64,000 nt of DNA, taken from the NCBI RefSeq assembly GCF_000974425.1, contig NZ_CP010429.1:2604001-2668000 (forward strand). The letters run 5' to 3'. This DNA is from Spirosoma radiotolerans (GTDB lineage Bacteria; Bacteroidota; Bacteroidia; Cytophagales; Spirosomataceae). A program made the position numbers and the translations under genes. Shown piece after piece: positions 10,392 through 16,559 of this stretch; within the stretch, counting starts at the first letter, position 1; every line of letters begins with the position of its first letter. The notes under the pieces were generated by a model, which was not told where the DNA came from, searched no databases, and was given only the letters and a program-made list of their open reading frames with translations.

Positions 10392-12032
10392 TTACAGTTT
10401 TATCAACTTCACCGTCCGTTTTTTATCTCCTGAAACAAGAGTCATGAAATACATGCCCGCAGACAGGTTCAGATTGGGTAATATAAACGCGCTTATTCCT
10501 GCCGAGGTGTAGCGGTTCTGCCAGACGATCCGGCCGGCGGCATTCGTCAACGTCGCATCCAGCGGTGTATTCGCCTGAATTTCTCCCCATTGAATCCCGA
10601 GGGGCTCGGCATCGCTGAACGGATTTGGGTAGACCAGCAATTGGCCGTAGGCATCAGCCAAAACAGATGCCCGCTCAAAATTGGGAATACCATAGCCCAA
10701 CTGGTCATCGGGATTGCCAAACTGACTCCCCGACCGGCGAAGGGCTTCCGTAACCTGGGCCGCCGTTAAGCGGGGGTGGGCCTGCCAGAAGCCAGCTGCC
10801 AGGCCAGCCACAAGGGGAGTGGCAAAGGAAGTACCATTGCCCAAAACGATGTTTCCGCCCGGATCTCCGATAGTAGTTCCCTGCCCCCGAGCCGCCAAAT
10901 CGGGTTTCACGCGTTGGTCGGCGGAGGGGCCAAACGAACTGAACGAAGCCCGCTGCCCGGTTTGGGTAACGGCACCAATCGCGAGCACAGATGCCGCATC
11001 AGACGGTGCCGATAAATAACGCCAGGCATCACTGCCTTCATTCCCGGCCGCTACCACCACAACCATGCCCGTTTCAGTCGCAATCTGGGCCGCCCGGCTG
11101 GAGAGTGCTGTTTTTCCGTCCATATTCTGGTAGGTGTAGCTGGTGTTTGGATCATCGAACTGCGTATAACCCAGGGATGAACTAATCACATCGACTCCCG
11201 CACTGTCGGCATATTCAGCACCGATCAGCCAGTTGGCTTCTTCAATTTGCTTTTCGGTATCGGCATCTTCGGTACGAAGTAAAATAAACGACGCTTTGTA
11301 AGCCGTTCCATACAATTGTTTGTCGGCGGTAGCGGCAATGGCCGACAAACACGAGAGCCCGTGCGCATCGTCTTCATACACGCTCGTTTCTTTCTTTACA
11401 AAATCATACGTTGCCAGCACCCGTTTTTCATCCAGGAGCGGTTTAAGAAAACCTACTTTGTCGCCATTCAGAAACCCTGCATCCAGCACGCCAATGAGCA
11501 TCCCCTCGCCATGATACCCCATCTGGTGCATTTTGTCCACCCCGAGCTGGGTAATCTGCGCCTGCGAAGTACCATAATCCAGCGGGGCGTCGGCCACACT
11601 GGTTAAAGACTCCAGCTTTTTAACGGTTTTAGGTTGGGTTTCGGCACTCACACGGGCAGCCGCCAGCGACCGGCCAAATTCCAGCCCCTTTACAAAAGGA
11701 AGTTTCTGTATCGTAGCTATGGTGATATCGTTGGTTTCGACCAGCACCGCATTGAGCCAGCGTGAGGTGAACCAGATTCTGGCTCCGGCCTGCTGTAGTT
11801 GCGTCACGTAAGTGGGGTTGACCGGTAAGTCACGTTCGAGTATGGAAATTGCCTGTTTTTGCCGACGCAATATGGAGCGCTGCGATAGGAATTGTTCGGG
11901 GCGGCTGACGCTGTAGGGCGAGTTTGCCTTATCGCCCAGTAGTACCAGATACTTGCGCGTTGTCTGAGCAAAGCTGGTCAACTGGAAAATTAACAGGACC
12001 AGCAGGAACCAGCCCGACTTATTCCTTTCCAT
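10392..12032 (-). CDS. Subtilisin-like S8 serine protease with T9SS sorting domain
   Basis: 546 residues from ATG 12032 (MERNKSGWFLLVLLIFQLTSFAQ signal peptide). Catalytic elements in order: Asp in IGVLDAGFLNGD, His in DDAHGLSCLSAI, oxyanion Asn in VVAAGNEGSDAW and Ser in GTSFATPLVAG. The last 80 residues (LLVYPNPFSDAEPL to KRTVKLIKL) are a type-A T9SS C-terminal sorting domain, so it should be exported by the Por system and attached to the surface or released. It overlaps the upstream lipoprotein gene by 14 nt, which implies coupled expression. It is the last gene of the six-gene minus-strand block. Confidence 0.93.
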   Translation of the reverse strand: MERNKSGWFLLVLLIFQLTSFAQTTRKYLVLLGDKANSPYSVSRPEQFLSQRSILRRQKQAISILERDLPVNPTYVTQLQQAGARIWFTSRWLNAVLVETNDITIATIQKLPFVKGLEFGRSLAAARVSAETQPKTVKKLESLTSVADAPLDYGTSQAQITQLGVDKMHQMGYHGEGMLIGVLDAGFLNGDKVGFLKPLLDEKRVLATYDFVKKETSVYEDDAHGLSCLSAIAATADKQLYGTAYKASFILLRTEDADTEKQIEEANWLIGAEYADSAGVDVISSSLGYTQFDDPNTSYTYQNMDGKTALSSRAAQIATETGMVVVVAAGNEGSDAWRYLSAPSDAASVLAIGAVTQTGQRASFSSFGPSADQRVKPDLAARGQGTTIGDPGGNIVLGNGTSFATPLVAGLAAGFWQAHPRLTAAQVTEALRRSGSQFGNPDDQLGYGIPNFERASVLADAYGQLLVYPNPFSDAEPLGIQWGEIQANTPLDATLTNAAGRIVWQNRYTSAGISAFILPNLNLSAGMYFMTLVSGDKKRTVKLIKL

Positions 12033-12717
12033 ACGTTTGAATACGATACACTTGTCGAATGCCATAATCAATCTGGTTCTTCCCGATACAACCTGGACTA
12101 GTCGTACAAAATTGACGAGACGTCCGCTCTTTATAAATCAGCCCAACCTGCCGGGCATACACCGCTATTCGTTTCTCCTGCGAAACCAGCGTCGAATCGT
12201 CCTGAGCCACCACCGTGACGGTTTCATTGAACAACTTCTCCAATACGCGAAAAGGCTGGCCTGCGTTGCGTACCTCGTACTCGTCGGGTCCGAATGCATT
12301 GTGCCGGTTGCCGTTCCAGGTCAACCCGTTACGGATTGGGAATAGTAAGCTAACAAAATCCTGACCATTTTCTGTACGGACGGCTTCATTCGTGACTAAC
12401 CGGGCCGACCATACCGAATCGGCTTGCCAGGGCTGGCTGTCGGTAGCGCGTCGGTAACGCATGAGTCGGTAGGCCGTTTGGCCAGCTACGTCTGTGTACG
12501 GCGCTCCCACAACTTCCTTGATTTGGTAATTTCGCTGTATCGGCTCGGCCTGAAGCCGGTATTGATCTTCCTGTACCGTGTAGATACAAAACTGACCCGT
12601 CTCCAGCGGAAAATAAGCAGAGTCTGCTGGGGCGAGCCCGGTTATGGCTGGCTGGCAACCTGATAATAACGCCAGAGCGACCACTATCCGGAAACTTGCA
12701 GACAAAGAATAGGGCAT
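12019..12717 (-). CDS. Hypothetical lipoprotein upstream of the protease
   Basis: 232 residues. Signal MPYSLSASFRIVVALALLSGC gives a lipidated Cys near residue 21. The mature protein is beta-rich, with FPLETGQFCIYTVQED at its start and a Cys-containing C-terminus (RQFCTTSPGCIGKNQ) that could form a disulfide. No catalytic motif is recognised. The 14-nt overlap with the protease gene suggests the two products are made together; a surface partner, inhibitor or chaperone of the protease is one possibility. The start lies 18 nt after the stop of the membrane-protein gene. Confidence 0.75.
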   Translation of the reverse strand: MPYSLSASFRIVVALALLSGCQPAITGLAPADSAYFPLETGQFCIYTVQEDQYRLQAEPIQRNYQIKEVVGAPYTDVAGQTAYRLMRYRRATDSQPWQADSVWSARLVTNEAVRTENGQDFVSLLFPIRNGLTWNGNRHNAFGPDEYEVRNAGQPFRVLEKLFNETVTVVAQDDSTLVSQEKRIAVYARQVGLIYKERTSRQFCTTSPGCIGKNQIDYGIRQVYRIQTYGKE

Positions 12718-12735: not shown

Positions 12736-13239
12736 TCAAAAAATCCGGCTCCAGGCGAAACGGATTATCAGCAGCAGGGCGACAAACCCAACGACTATAT
12801 AGGCGAAAGGAACGTAGGTAACTGCGTAAATACGGGTGCGGTCAATGAACCAGAGGATGCCCATGACTGCCCCGATCAGGGTCAGAAAACTGGATAATTT
12901 ACCGAAGCCCGGAATATAGCTGAACGGGATTTTGCGCCGAATAAGCATCAGCGTGGCTACCATCGTCAATACCGGCAGCACTTGCAGACCGAGATTCATA
13001 TCCCAGATGCTCTGGCGCTCGAACAAAAACAGGTAGATGTTGAGGGTAACGGCAAAAATGCCCGGAATGCAGGCCAGATACACCAGAACCGCATAGACGT
13101 AGCGCCATTTCCAGATGGCCTCCGCCGTTTCACCCGACCATAAATTAACTAAAAAAGCTCCTGTCGGTACGGCCGACAGGAGCAGGAATAACATAATTGG
13201 CTGGCCGGATAAGGCCGCAAATACATCGCGCAGTGTCAT
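12736..13239 (-). CDS. Four-helix membrane protein, hypothetical
   Basis: 167 residues with four or five hydrophobic segments (about 13-31, 45-72, 86-100, 114-130, 142-160). The short soluble stretches carry ERQSIWDMN and RRKIPFSYIPGFGK. No family is recognised. It follows the ASKHA gene after an 89-nt spacer filled by a hairpin, and precedes the lipoprotein gene by 18 nt. Position in the block suggests a membrane component of the same envelope function. Confidence 0.7.
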   Translation of the reverse strand: MTLRDVFAALSGQPIMLFLLLSAVPTGAFLVNLWSGETAEAIWKWRYVYAVLVYLACIPGIFAVTLNIYLFLFERQSIWDMNLGLQVLPVLTMVATLMLIRRKIPFSYIPGFGKLSSFLTLIGAVMGILWFIDRTRIYAVTYVPFAYIVVGFVALLLIIRFAWSRIF

Positions 13240-13259: not shown

Positions 13260-13328
13260 AATGAGTAAAAGAACGAAAGAGTGAAAGAGCGTTTCGGCAG
13301 TTTTCACTCTTTCGTTCTTTTACTCATT
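13260..13328. repeat. 27-bp perfect inverted repeat with 8-nt unit arms
   Basis: Arms 13260-13286 and 13302-13328, perfect complement, 15-nt loop, ending one base before the ASKHA stop codon. The left arm and its upstream flank are built of 8-nt variants: GAGTAAAA, GAGCGAAT, GAGTAAAA, GAACGAAA, GAGTGAAA. It may partly terminate transcription or protect upstream mRNA. Confidence 0.9.
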
Positions 13329-14396
13329 TTATTTAAGCGTCAATAAGTAGCCAATCGTAAAGTTGGCGTCCCAGTCGAAAACGAACTGATTGCAGCCCGT
13401 TGCATCGGCAATGGCTTTGTAAATATTCAGGCCCGCTTTCGATTTGGCACTTTCCAGTTTGTAAGCCGATGGCGCATCGAGAACGGTGTAGCGTTCCTTG
13501 CCTTTCCGCACCGACTTGGCCAGTTCAAATGGTACACCACCGATGATAAAGCAGGTTTTACGGTGATCGTTGGGCACCTGTTTCGCTTTCGCCGAGACCT
13601 CTGTTGAAACGGTTTCATCACTGGTTCCATTCTCAAAATACTTGGCTCCGTACGTTTCCAGCGACTTGATGGACTCGCCCTGCTTCCAGGAGATCTTGGT
13701 GTTGCCTGAACCGATGTCTGTGACAAACGAATTGTCCGCATAGTCGGCGGGTAGCACCGACCGCAGCCCCAGGGAACCTTCCTGCTCGGGCGTAACCGTG
13801 TTGACAAAATAATTCAGCGACTTTAGGGCCTTGATGATCTTTTGGGTTCCTTCGGCTTTGAGCGCTCCTGAACTAACCACAAAGTGAATGTTGCGTCCGC
13901 CCACACCAAAGTCAAGCATTTTGCCGATGTAACTCTTTAAGCCTGTCCGAATGTCATTATCGCTTGCCATGTTCTCCATAACTAGGCTATTCCCGAATTC
14001 AGCTTTTTCGAGCTTCCAGCGTTTCTGGTCGTCAATTCTGACAATAAATGAGTTGAAGCCACTGGCGCCTAATTCAACGACACCTTTCAACTGGCCATTC
14101 TGAGGCTCCGGAGCGGTGTAATTAAACGCCTGACGCGGCTGATCCGTCGCTTCGCTTTCCGACGAGCCAGATGATGCCTCTGACGAAGATGCCGATGATT
14201 CTTCGACGGCTCCTTCGGCTGTTTTGTCGTCAGCCCGGGGCATCGTCTGCGACTCGGAATATTCTTTTTCTTTAGCGTCCTTGGGCGCCAGTTTACGCAA
14301 GGCCGCATTGCCACCAAAGTAACGGAACGCGAAGAAAGCGGCAGCCAGAATCAGGGCTGTGATGAGTAGCCGGCCGGCCACAGTTAATCGTTGCAT
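13329..14396 (-). CDS. Membrane-anchored Ppx/GppA-like ASKHA protein
   Basis: 355 residues. Residues 7-24 form one N-terminal membrane helix, then an acidic, Ser-rich linker (about 35-90), then a domain with Ppx/GppA order: phosphate-1-like VVELGASGFNSFIVRID, SSGALKAEGTQKIIKAL (matching the TSALR region), TPEQEGSLGLRSVL (matching SGxEEARL, with the second Glu kept), phosphate-2-like VTDIGSGNTKISW, and a late glycine motif FIIGGVPFELA. True Ppx/GppA enzymes act on polyphosphate or pppGpp and are usually soluble; here key positions drift, so an actin-like or binding role is also possible. The remote homology is my reading, not a search result. Confidence 0.6.
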   Translation of the reverse strand: MQRLTVAGRLLITALILAAAFFAFRYFGGNAALRKLAPKDAKEKEYSESQTMPRADDKTAEGAVEESSASSSEASSGSSESEATDQPRQAFNYTAPEPQNGQLKGVVELGASGFNSFIVRIDDQKRWKLEKAEFGNSLVMENMASDNDIRTGLKSYIGKMLDFGVGGRNIHFVVSSGALKAEGTQKIIKALKSLNYFVNTVTPEQEGSLGLRSVLPADYADNSFVTDIGSGNTKISWKQGESIKSLETYGAKYFENGTSDETVSTEVSAKAKQVPNDHRKTCFIIGGVPFELAKSVRKGKERYTVLDAPSAYKLESAKSKAGLNIYKAIADATGCNQFVFDWDANFTIGYLLTLK

Positions 14397-14406
14397 AAGA
14401 AATTAA

Positions 14407-14488
14407 TTTTGAATGATTGAATTGTTGAATGTCAGAGTGATTGAATAAGATCAGCGTCGGCTATTTTATCATTCAATCACTCATTTGA
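14407..14488. repeat. Inverted repeat with 8-nt unit arms
   Basis: Stem GAGTGATTGAAT at 14435-14446 pairs with 14471-14482. The left side reads as successive 8-nt variants: GAATGATT, GAATTGTT, GAATGTCA, GAGTGATT. It fills the 94-nt spacer between the PspA-like gene (stop 14491) and the ASKHA gene (start 14396). Confidence 0.75.
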
Positions 14489-14490
14489 AA

Positions 14491-15504
14491 TTAGTCCAGC
14501 AGGTTTTTATAGCCAGCGTCCTTCTGAGGATTTGGGCCGAGGTTGAGGGGCTGGGCCGGCGCATCTAGCTGGACCATCTTGAACTCGCCTTTGTTGTAAG
14601 CCTCCAGCAGAGCCTCACCCTTGTCGGACAGAACGCCATTCTGAATATCGACGCCGTTGATGAAATCCATCGAGAGATCCATCGCCCGTTTCATTTCACC
14701 GAGTTTCATGCTCATGTCGTCCTGAATGTATTCCATCGACTGGTCGAAGTAAAACTTCTTGTCTGGATCACCTTTAAAGATGCTGACCGCCGTTTTGAGG
14801 GCATTCGAGCTATCCTTAACAATTTGATATTCTGTCTCTTTGAGCCGAACTTTGATCTCTGTTTCCTTGATAATGTAATCGGCGCTCTGGTTTACTTTTT
14901 CCATAAACGCCAGCACATTTTTCATGTTACGCTGGAGCGGGAGCAGCTTTTCATTCATTTCCTGAAGCCCGGCGCCTTCGATGGTTGCCAGTTGGGCCGT
15001 TTCGCGCATACCGGGCCTGTCGCTCAGCGAATTGGCTTTATTGGCTTCGGCAAATTTCTGCTTGATCGCTTCGTTGTTCTCATTGATTTTTTTGTTCAGC
15101 TTTACGAGCTGTCCTGCCAGAATATTAATCTGACCCTGCATTTTTTCGCGTTTCTCTTTCAAATCATCAATATAGATTTTCATGATAGCGATCGGATTCA
15201 ATTGAATAACCGTACCGGTTATACTACGCATCAGCGATTTGAACAGAAAGAAGACGGCAGTGCGTACATCTTTGCTGGTGAACAGGAAAATCAGAACGCC
15301 CAGCGCGCCAAGCAGGAGCGATAGTTCGAGGATGTTCGACGTGGCGCGAATCAGAAATTCGATGATCCGGTTAAAGTAAACCAGGCCTAATCCCGCCATG
15401 CCGGCCAGAACGATCATGCCCAGAACACCTTCGGGACGGCTCCAGAATGAACGCTTTTCTACGTCCGCACCGCCACCAAGTTTAGAAAAATCAGGAGTTG
15501 CCAT
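14491..15504 (-). CDS. Membrane-anchored PspA-like coiled-coil protein
   Basis: 337 residues. Two adjacent membrane helices (about 28-47 and 55-75) and a third amphipathic segment to about 100 are followed by a long helical region (105-235) with the pattern NPIAIMKIYIDDLKEKREKM, NILAGQLVKLNKKI, then KLLPLQRNMKNVL, reminiscent of the long helical hairpin of PspA/Vipp1 proteins. PspA proteins are ESCRT-III-like membrane stabilisers; they lack membrane spans, so this would be an anchored variant. The C-terminal 100 residues are mixed, ending Pro-rich. Similarity to PspA is structural inference only. Start ATG 15504 is the only good one. Confidence 0.55.
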   Translation of the reverse strand: MATPDFSKLGGGADVEKRSFWSRPEGVLGMIVLAGMAGLGLVYFNRIIEFLIRATSNILELSLLLGALGVLIFLFTSKDVRTAVFFLFKSLMRSITGTVIQLNPIAIMKIYIDDLKEKREKMQGQINILAGQLVKLNKKINENNEAIKQKFAEANKANSLSDRPGMRETAQLATIEGAGLQEMNEKLLPLQRNMKNVLAFMEKVNQSADYIIKETEIKVRLKETEYQIVKDSSNALKTAVSIFKGDPDKKFYFDQSMEYIQDDMSMKLGEMKRAMDLSMDFINGVDIQNGVLSDKGEALLEAYNKGEFKMVQLDAPAQPLNLGPNPQKDAGYKNLLD

Positions 15505-15588
15505 TTGTTTGGGTTTATGGTTTGAGGTTTTGGTATTCGCGAGCCTGAGGTCATCGTTACAACAGGCCTGTCCATCGAGTAGTAAAAC
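15505..15588. repeat. Spacer with 7-nt near-tandem units
   Basis: Bases 15510-15540 read as GGGTTTA, TGGTTTG, AGGTTTT, GGTATTC, the same unit type as in the hairpin repeats at 10269 and 16461 but without a matching second arm. It separates the coiled-coil gene from the PspA-like gene. Confidence 0.4.
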
Positions 15589-16314
15589 CTATTTTAAGTA
15601 GTGCGCCATTTTGGCGATATCATCTTTAATCTGGTCGGTAAAATGGGCAAACGTGGTTTCATAATTTTGCCGGTTCTGAGTGATTTTCGCACTCTGTTCC
15701 GTGATTTCGCCCGTAATAGCCGTCAACCGGTTTGTATTGGCGTCAATCTGTTTCTGAATCTCCACGAGTTGCTTTGCCAGCGACTCATTATCGGTTTGTA
15801 GCCGTTTCTGTTCATTCTGTAAGCCGCCAACGCGTTCGGCCAGAGCGGTTTCTACGCTTTTGGCAAACCCATCCCGGTCTTTGTTCAGGGCTGCAATATA
15901 TCCATTTGCCGTATTGGTCAACACCGTCACGTCTACTGAGCCAGCCAACGCTTTGAAACTGGCCCAGGCCGCCTGAAACTGCTTCTCTTCGGATAAACCC
16001 AGGTTGCTGAGGCTACGCAGCGTTTCCCGAAATTCGAAGTAGTCGGGGCCAGGCGGATTGTTCTGCGCCAGTACGTTGGCCAAATGTTCAGCAAATTTGG
16101 AATCGACAGTGCCAGGCGTACTTACCGGCGACTCACCTACCGGTGTAACCGAACCAGGGCTGGTGACCCCGGGCGTAGGTACGCTCGCCGAAGGGCGGGG
16201 TACGACTGGTGCCGATGAAGCCACTGGCGGTGTGCCGGTAGCCGTACCCGGCTCTTCGTCTTTAACGAAGAAACTCAGGATTTTACGACCAATTGATTTG
16301 TCAGGTTCTGGCAT
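15589..16314 (-). CDS. Pro-rich, coiled-coil cytoplasmic protein, first gene of the block
   Basis: 241 residues without signal or membrane helix. Residues 1-20 are MPEPDKSIGRKILSFFVKDE; 22-70 are a low-complexity Pro/Ser/Thr/Val linker; 72-135 form a helical domain (KFAEHLANVLAQNNPPGPDYFEF, given here as a family-like start); 150-235 are a coiled coil with heptads (QNEQKRLQTDNESLAKQLVE). I recall similar uncharacterised Bacteroidota proteins next to phage-shock-like genes but cannot name a family. Role inferred as a soluble partner of the anchored coiled-coil protein encoded next. Confidence 0.6.
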   Translation of the reverse strand: MPEPDKSIGRKILSFFVKDEEPGTATGTPPVASSAPVVPRPSASVPTPGVTSPGSVTPVGESPVSTPGTVDSKFAEHLANVLAQNNPPGPDYFEFRETLRSLSNLGLSEEKQFQAAWASFKALAGSVDVTVLTNTANGYIAALNKDRDGFAKSVETALAERVGGLQNEQKRLQTDNESLAKQLVEIQKQIDANTNRLTAITGEITEQSAKITQNRQNYETTFAHFTDQIKDDIAKMAHYLK

Positions 16315-16460
16315 AATTGTCTATCGTTTCGGAGCTACTCATTGGCGGGTTTACCCCTTCTGTAAAAGACTAAGCAATGTTACGAGGTTCCGGCCAATCC
16401 CACAATATCAGATTTGGCCGAACGGTTGCGGGGGTTGACAATGTGTTGCAGGGAAGGACG

Positions 16461-16553
16461 GTTTACGGTTTGTAGTTTACGGTTTGTGGTTGGCTGACGC
16501 ATCAGTTGCTTTCGCCGGTCCGTTGGCGCGCCAGCCAACCACAAACCGTAAAC
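16461..16553. repeat. Palindromic intergenic repeat, copy 2 (with 10301-10363)
   Basis: Arms 16475-16500 and 16528-16553 (26 nt, one mismatch) around a 27-nt loop that shares TTGCTTTCGCCGGTCCG with the loop of copy 1. The left flank is built of 7-nt units GGTTTAC, GGTTTGT, AGTTTAC, GGTTTGT. It ends 6 nt before the msrA stop codon. Confidence 0.88.
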
Positions 16554-16559
16554 CGAGTC

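Follow-up and report, generated by a model that had tools for sequence, protein, structure and literature searches.

A 64,000-nucleotide stretch of Spirosoma radiotolerans DNA (contig NZ_CP010429.1, positions 2,604,001 to 2,668,000; here called the window) raises the question of what three consecutive genes, A, B and C, do together at the cell envelope. The host genome is a single contig of 7.03 Mb. The first-pass annotation had proposed, at 13329..16314, a set of three same-strand genes encoding a coiled-coil protein with a Pro-rich linker, an anchored protein with a long helical region, and a membrane-anchored protein of the ASKHA (Ppx/GppA-like) fold. Open reading frames of this kind are found there on the minus strand, in the order A, B, C and with gaps of less than 100 bases. 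Neither these three nor the next gene, D, belongs to a Pfam or NCBIfam family above cut-off. A, B and C form a conserved trio, and we see an even chance that C, an anchored and likely exported protein of Ppx/GppA type, binds and perhaps cleaves a phosphate ligand and passes its state to B and A.

The expectation that the neighbourhood would recur outside this genome is borne out. Among 148 genomes of the order, protein queries found B in 29 and C in 22, and a profile search found A in 37. Pruning of four genomes with weak A matches (E above 1e-4) and one with a weak C match leaves 33 for A, 29 for B and 21 for C; one weak B match (G097) was retained because its locus, L082, reads A-B-X4-X5-X3 (X genes described below). 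A is present in every B genome and every C genome of this sample, and there is no A genome without B or C. Hypergeometric values for co-occurrence are very small but overstated, as the genomes are related. Across 395 genomes of the phylum the C profile matches 19 (seven at E below 1e-100) and the B profile 25; the set belongs mainly to this order. Named species genomes were scanned as well; of the 592 stretches retrieved, 402 code for C relatives, and locus counts use the best 80 of the 402. A and B both lie beside C in 61 of these 80 loci; one of the two is labelled in 5 and neither in 14. Some misses are due to the gene caller (three C genes were uncalled) or to contig ends (L131, L158), and in L133, L135 and L160 A and/or B lie farther from C. 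A viral or phage origin of C was rejected, as no C relative is present in the scan of viral contigs or in phage records. C genes were found in 2 of 72,556 plasmid records. Of two Hymenobacter plasmids with a C gene (L277 and L278), one has it beside a PAS-domain gene and the other reads vWA-PP2C-kinase-C-A with broken frames.

C consists of one N-terminal hydrophobic helix, a low-complexity linker and a globular domain, which is predicted by structure modelling to have the ASKHA fold of Ppx/GppA type, as first proposed. The window protein has no match to Pfam PF02541 at E 0.1; the other 18 of 19 C members match it at E up to 0.1 (best 2.2e-7), and a lipoprotein relative in L210 passes the family cut-off (29.3 vs 27 bits). 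C is not the only Ppx/GppA-like gene of its genome, because two ordinary Ppx/GppA genes lie elsewhere; hhalign of C with a Ppx of its own genome gives a probability of only 16.6, with the Glu and phosphate-loop region aligned. Compared with Ppx/GppA phosphatases (PF02541; 6pc0, 1t6c, 3mdq), C is alike in fold, in the Glu at the catalytic position and in the second-loop D-x-G-x-G. It differs in being likely exported, in having Glu for the first-loop Asp and N232 and K234 for Ser and Glu, and in having an anchor and linker. NTPDases (CD39/apyrase type; 4bra, 3zx2) are also counted among the closest known systems.

The site was compared in 49 proteins: 19 C, 16 from a genus in which the homologues are lipoproteins, 8 secreted and 6 cytoplasmic. 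The active-site motifs of C had been described as drifted, and this is true of the first phosphate loop, where the Asp of the DxG motif is Glu in 19/19 C and 16/16 lipoprotein-genus proteins; Asp is kept in 3/8 secreted and 6/6 cytoplasmic proteins. It is not true of two other motifs. Glu occupies the E206 position in every group (19/19, 16/16, 8/8 and 6/6), and D227-x-G-x-G of the second loop is invariant in 49/49. The altered first loop would suit a domain that is no longer catalytic and only binds or has a structural role, with the whole set tying inner membrane and cell wall together mechanically; so would a segment, DWDAN (341-345), that never varies in C and is absent from Ppx, and the fact that X4, a protein with the same kind of anchor, carries an OmpA domain, a domain known for cell-wall binding. 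However, drift would be expected to lose the catalytic-position Glu, which is kept in all C and all lipoprotein-genus proteins compared, and we consider a purely mechanical role quite unlikely.

The usual view of Ppx/GppA phosphatases is that of cytoplasmic enzymes acting on polyphosphate and (p)ppGpp. The C domain of this genome, in contrast, likely lies outside the cytoplasm and is held there by the membrane anchor; the sequences that point outward are lipoprotein homologues, an anchor in common with X4, and signal-peptide relatives. In two genomes from another family of the class the C profile finds homologues, a tandem pair in each, and those of L210 start with a lipobox; a 249-genome sample of this family held no additional homologues. 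In the lipoprotein genus 13 of 116 genomes match the profile, 12 of them strongly. In 16 of the 17 distinct strong genes the start, as judged by eye, is a hydrophobic stretch that closes with a lipobox Cys; the remaining gene lacks a clear start. When C N-termini are compared with those of 14 X4 proteins, 78 of 82 distinct C outscore the best of 284 controls (42 residues each; all controls carry a hydrophobic helix, and over-long C starts were pattern-trimmed). The best pair is C of L062 and X4 of L070, and the likeness extends beyond the helix. OmpA domains bind peptidoglycan, so the body of X4 should be outside. A signal peptide can be seen by eye in 8 of 12 weak C-profile matches from the phylum scan. 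A profile built from seven signal-peptide relatives matches 50 of 390 genomes, 18 at E below 1e-40; eight of these are sources of the original hits, and ten are new, including the host genome with two such proteins. Ten further exported-type proteins were inspected, and a signal peptide is recognisable by eye in all of them. The two exported-type Ppx-like proteins of the host genome are encoded at G000:C1:3859303-3860391 (L295) and G000:C1:3171016-3172080, where the open frames span 514 and 486 aa; in the L295 protein a signal peptide is visible by eye and the N-terminal extension is long.

It could be argued that C faces the cytoplasm like an ordinary Ppx/GppA and acts beside B on the inner face. 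The charge around the anchor is ambiguous and gives no help with orientation, and PPX is listed as an intracellular enzyme in the available portion of PMC13318637. Given the lipoprotein signals in 16/17 homologues of one genus, the homology of the anchor to that of an OmpA-domain protein, and the exported relatives in the trees below, a cytoplasmic C is very improbable; the first two of these led to its rejection as the leading view. The first-pass annotation had also placed the ESCRT-III-like and the actin/Ppx-like component on one membrane. The two are probably not on one face of it, with the C domain likely outside and the B helices likely inside.

A tree of 48 domains separates 43 exported-type from 5 cytoplasmic rows at 100/99. 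C forms one clade at 100/99, nested among the lipoprotein-genus proteins if the root is placed on the Ppx side. Both splits return in a second tree, of 45 rows, at 100/100 and 100/99, where inner support is weaker (SEC group 57/46). Two rows missed by the trimming pattern are absent from both trees, one truncated Ppx was also omitted, and long branches are numerous. With that reserve on the order of events, the sequences suggest that a lipoprotein-type ancestor gained an X4-type anchor and joined A and B. A wider proposal is that Bacteroidota have an exported branch of Ppx/GppA, of which one Cytophagales member took the anchor of a PspA-associated, cell-wall-binding transport protein, and so became an outside ASKHA sensor that, on meeting an extracytoplasmic phosphate ligand, drives an ESCRT-III-like protein inside. 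We offer this as tentative, with somewhat less than an even chance of being right. No paper on an exported Ppx/GppA protein, or on the A-B-C gene set, is among the matches listed in the open-licence literature.

B is a PspA-like protein that likely sits in the inner membrane. Its N-terminal part has hydrophobic helices and long helices come after them, as the annotation had claimed, and the long helices likely lie on the cytoplasmic side of a membrane crossed twice. Window B does not match Pfam PF04012 (PspA/IM30) up to E 1, and the host genome has no match at E 0.001. Eight of the 20 B relatives match the family at an E of up to 0.1 (3.7e-8 at best), and the B profile retrieves proteins that pass the PF04012 cut-off. 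The predicted structure of B is a weak model, which bears on the PspA helical hairpin. In the PDB the B profile has 43 matches, none of them a PspA chain and most of them unrelated coiled coils; sequence searches of the PDB with window B alone and window C alone gave nothing useful. The C-terminal tail of B is likely a docking peptide, judging from its conservation. XpaC membership was considered because UniRef names one B homologue (P0117) after 5-bromo-4-chloroindolyl phosphate; window B has no such Pfam match at E 1. In L080:7898-8927 the B gene lies in two overlapping frames, perhaps through decay or a sequencing error. A is a soluble protein with a short N-terminal peptide, a Pro-rich linker, a helical domain and a coiled coil, in line with its original description.

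Operon types were surveyed in the window and 39 stretches chosen for a B or C hit. Twenty have a called C: twelve read A-B-C, two A-C, three vWA-PP2C-kinase-C-A, and three have C alone; in L090, one of the two A-C loci, a B match lies between A and C. X4 is present in 14 stretches, mostly as A-B-X4-X5-X3. X4 is a long protein with an OmpA domain at its end, and OmpA-type domains are among the matches listed (60 of 80) for its profile in the PDB; X5 is a BPD-type permease (below the Pfam cut-off), and X3 is an ATP-binding cassette (ABC) ATPase. Sister loci with this ABC arm include L070, L077, L079 and L224. L070 and L089, from one genus, are hybrids (A-B-C-X4-X5-X3), and L160 (Hymenobacter negativus) has A, then X4-X5-X3 and C. 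Another family has A-B pairs without an adjoining C; a gene for a Na/Pi cotransporter lies near them in one genus, and C is elsewhere in those genomes. Three genomes have the vWA-PP2C-kinase-C-A order, and it recurs, with several frames broken, on a Hymenobacter volaticus plasmid. The triad, which we take to be TerY-P, precedes C-A in relatives in the same gene order; none lies beside the window trio.

The first-pass annotation knew of no named system with this set. The conserved set is indeed unnamed, but an ABC arm with a PspA-like and an OmpA-type binding protein has already been described (PMC11237479). The available portion of that paper reports PspA/Snf7-like proteins with a membrane segment, in operons with an AAA+ ATPase, an ABC ATPase, a permease and a PBPB-OmpA protein. 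The sister loci resemble these in having a membrane-anchored PspA-like gene beside those of an ABC ATPase, a permease and an OmpA-domain protein, and the X4-X5-X3 arm fits the description given there apart from the AAA+ ATPase. The middle part of X4 is labelled a binding domain because of that description and its position. No AAA+ ATPase was noticed adjoining the present sets, in which no search aimed at AAA+ was made, and no ABC ATPase, permease or OmpA gene adjoins the window trio. The sets here differ from those reported in the same portion of the paper by the constant partner A and by the Ppx/GppA-type module C on an X4-type anchor. A word search of its main text finds no ppx, askha, pp2c or vwa; the C arm and the triad are thus not described in the main text.

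The mechanism that we favour has A and B as an inner-membrane core, on which C, or X4 with the ABC permease and ATPase, would be exchangeable outside-facing modules. C, predicted to lie outside the inner membrane, would read (bind, and perhaps cleave) a putative phosphate-containing ligand. A phosphate ligand is suggested by the retained site, the transport neighbours and the exchange with an ABC-linked module. The state of C would be passed through the membrane to PspA-like B and its coiled-coil partner A, with the anchors of C and X4 presumably contacting B; we infer this direction of signalling. In some relatives the vWA-PP2C-kinase triad may be a further input. A simpler role, with no inward signal, is that of a nutritional phosphohydrolase acting on polyphosphate or nucleotides in the periplasm, with A and B merely holding C. 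Such a role appears unlikely: the first-loop Asp is replaced in every C compared, and a scavenging enzyme would need neither so tight a dependence on A nor a kinase-phosphatase triad ahead of C-A.

If the signalling mechanism is correct, an exported Ppx/GppA branch with a PspA-linked member would offer a testable route from a phosphate compound outside to membrane maintenance inside. The set also points to a way in which PspA-like systems that lack an AAA+ ATPase could come under control, an open question according to the available portion of PMC11237479. The shared anchor provides a handle, since one core is predicted to accept, through the same kind of helix, either a phosphatase-fold protein or an OmpA-type protein that is ABC-linked.

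Table 1. Genes of the window locus and features of their products (window positions).
Feature	Position	Strand	Remarks
Gene A	15589..16314	-	241 aa open reading frame
A coiled coil, residues about 139-235	15610..15900	-	coiled-coil matches sub-threshold only
Gene B	14491..15504	-	337 aa open reading frame
B residues 24-76	15277..15435	-	hydrophobic helices, likely two membrane passes
B residues 104-284	14653..15195	-	long helices; sequence relation to PspA/IM30 family, via B relatives
B residues 332-337, conserved C-terminal tail	14494..14511	-	L335 invariant, Y332 nearly so (20 proteins)
Gene C	13329..14396	-	355 aa open reading frame
C residues 6-26, N-terminal membrane anchor	14319..14381	-	homologous to anchor of OmpA-type protein (X4) of sister operons
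C residues 27-98, Ser/Glu-rich linker	14103..14318	-	model confidence <50 across 37 to 84
C residues 99-355, Ppx/GppA-type ASKHA domain	13332..14102	-	predicted structure
C first phosphate loop, E108-LGASGFNS	14049..14075	-	Asp of cytoplasmic Ppx is Glu here
C E206 codon	13779..13781	-	aligned with catalytic Glu of Ppx
C second phosphate loop, D227-IGSGNTK	13695..13718	-	N232 and K234 mark the exported branch
Gene D	12736..13239	-	167 aa, small hydrophobic membrane protein; frequent fourth member of the set
Gene E	12019..12717	-	lipobox LLSGC
Gene F	10392..12071	-	S8 (subtilisin-type) protease with type IX secretion sorting tail, just after lipoprotein gene E

A methionine sulfoxide reductase gene lies upstream of A-B-C. 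The hydrophobic D, lipoprotein E and surface protease F follow on the same strand, as had been pointed out. E and F do not belong to the conserved unit and were rejected as members, being labelled downstream of C in only 9 and 12 of the best 80 loci; D is labelled there in 41. D is tied to B by L225:6335-8061, where a strongly diverged B-like gene adjoins a D gene; the A-C locus of that genome is without B. Between C and D (13260-13328) there is a perfect 27-nt inverted repeat with a 15-nt loop. Further inverted repeats, differing in sequence, lie in the B-C gap (14409-14483) and upstream of A (16459-16555).
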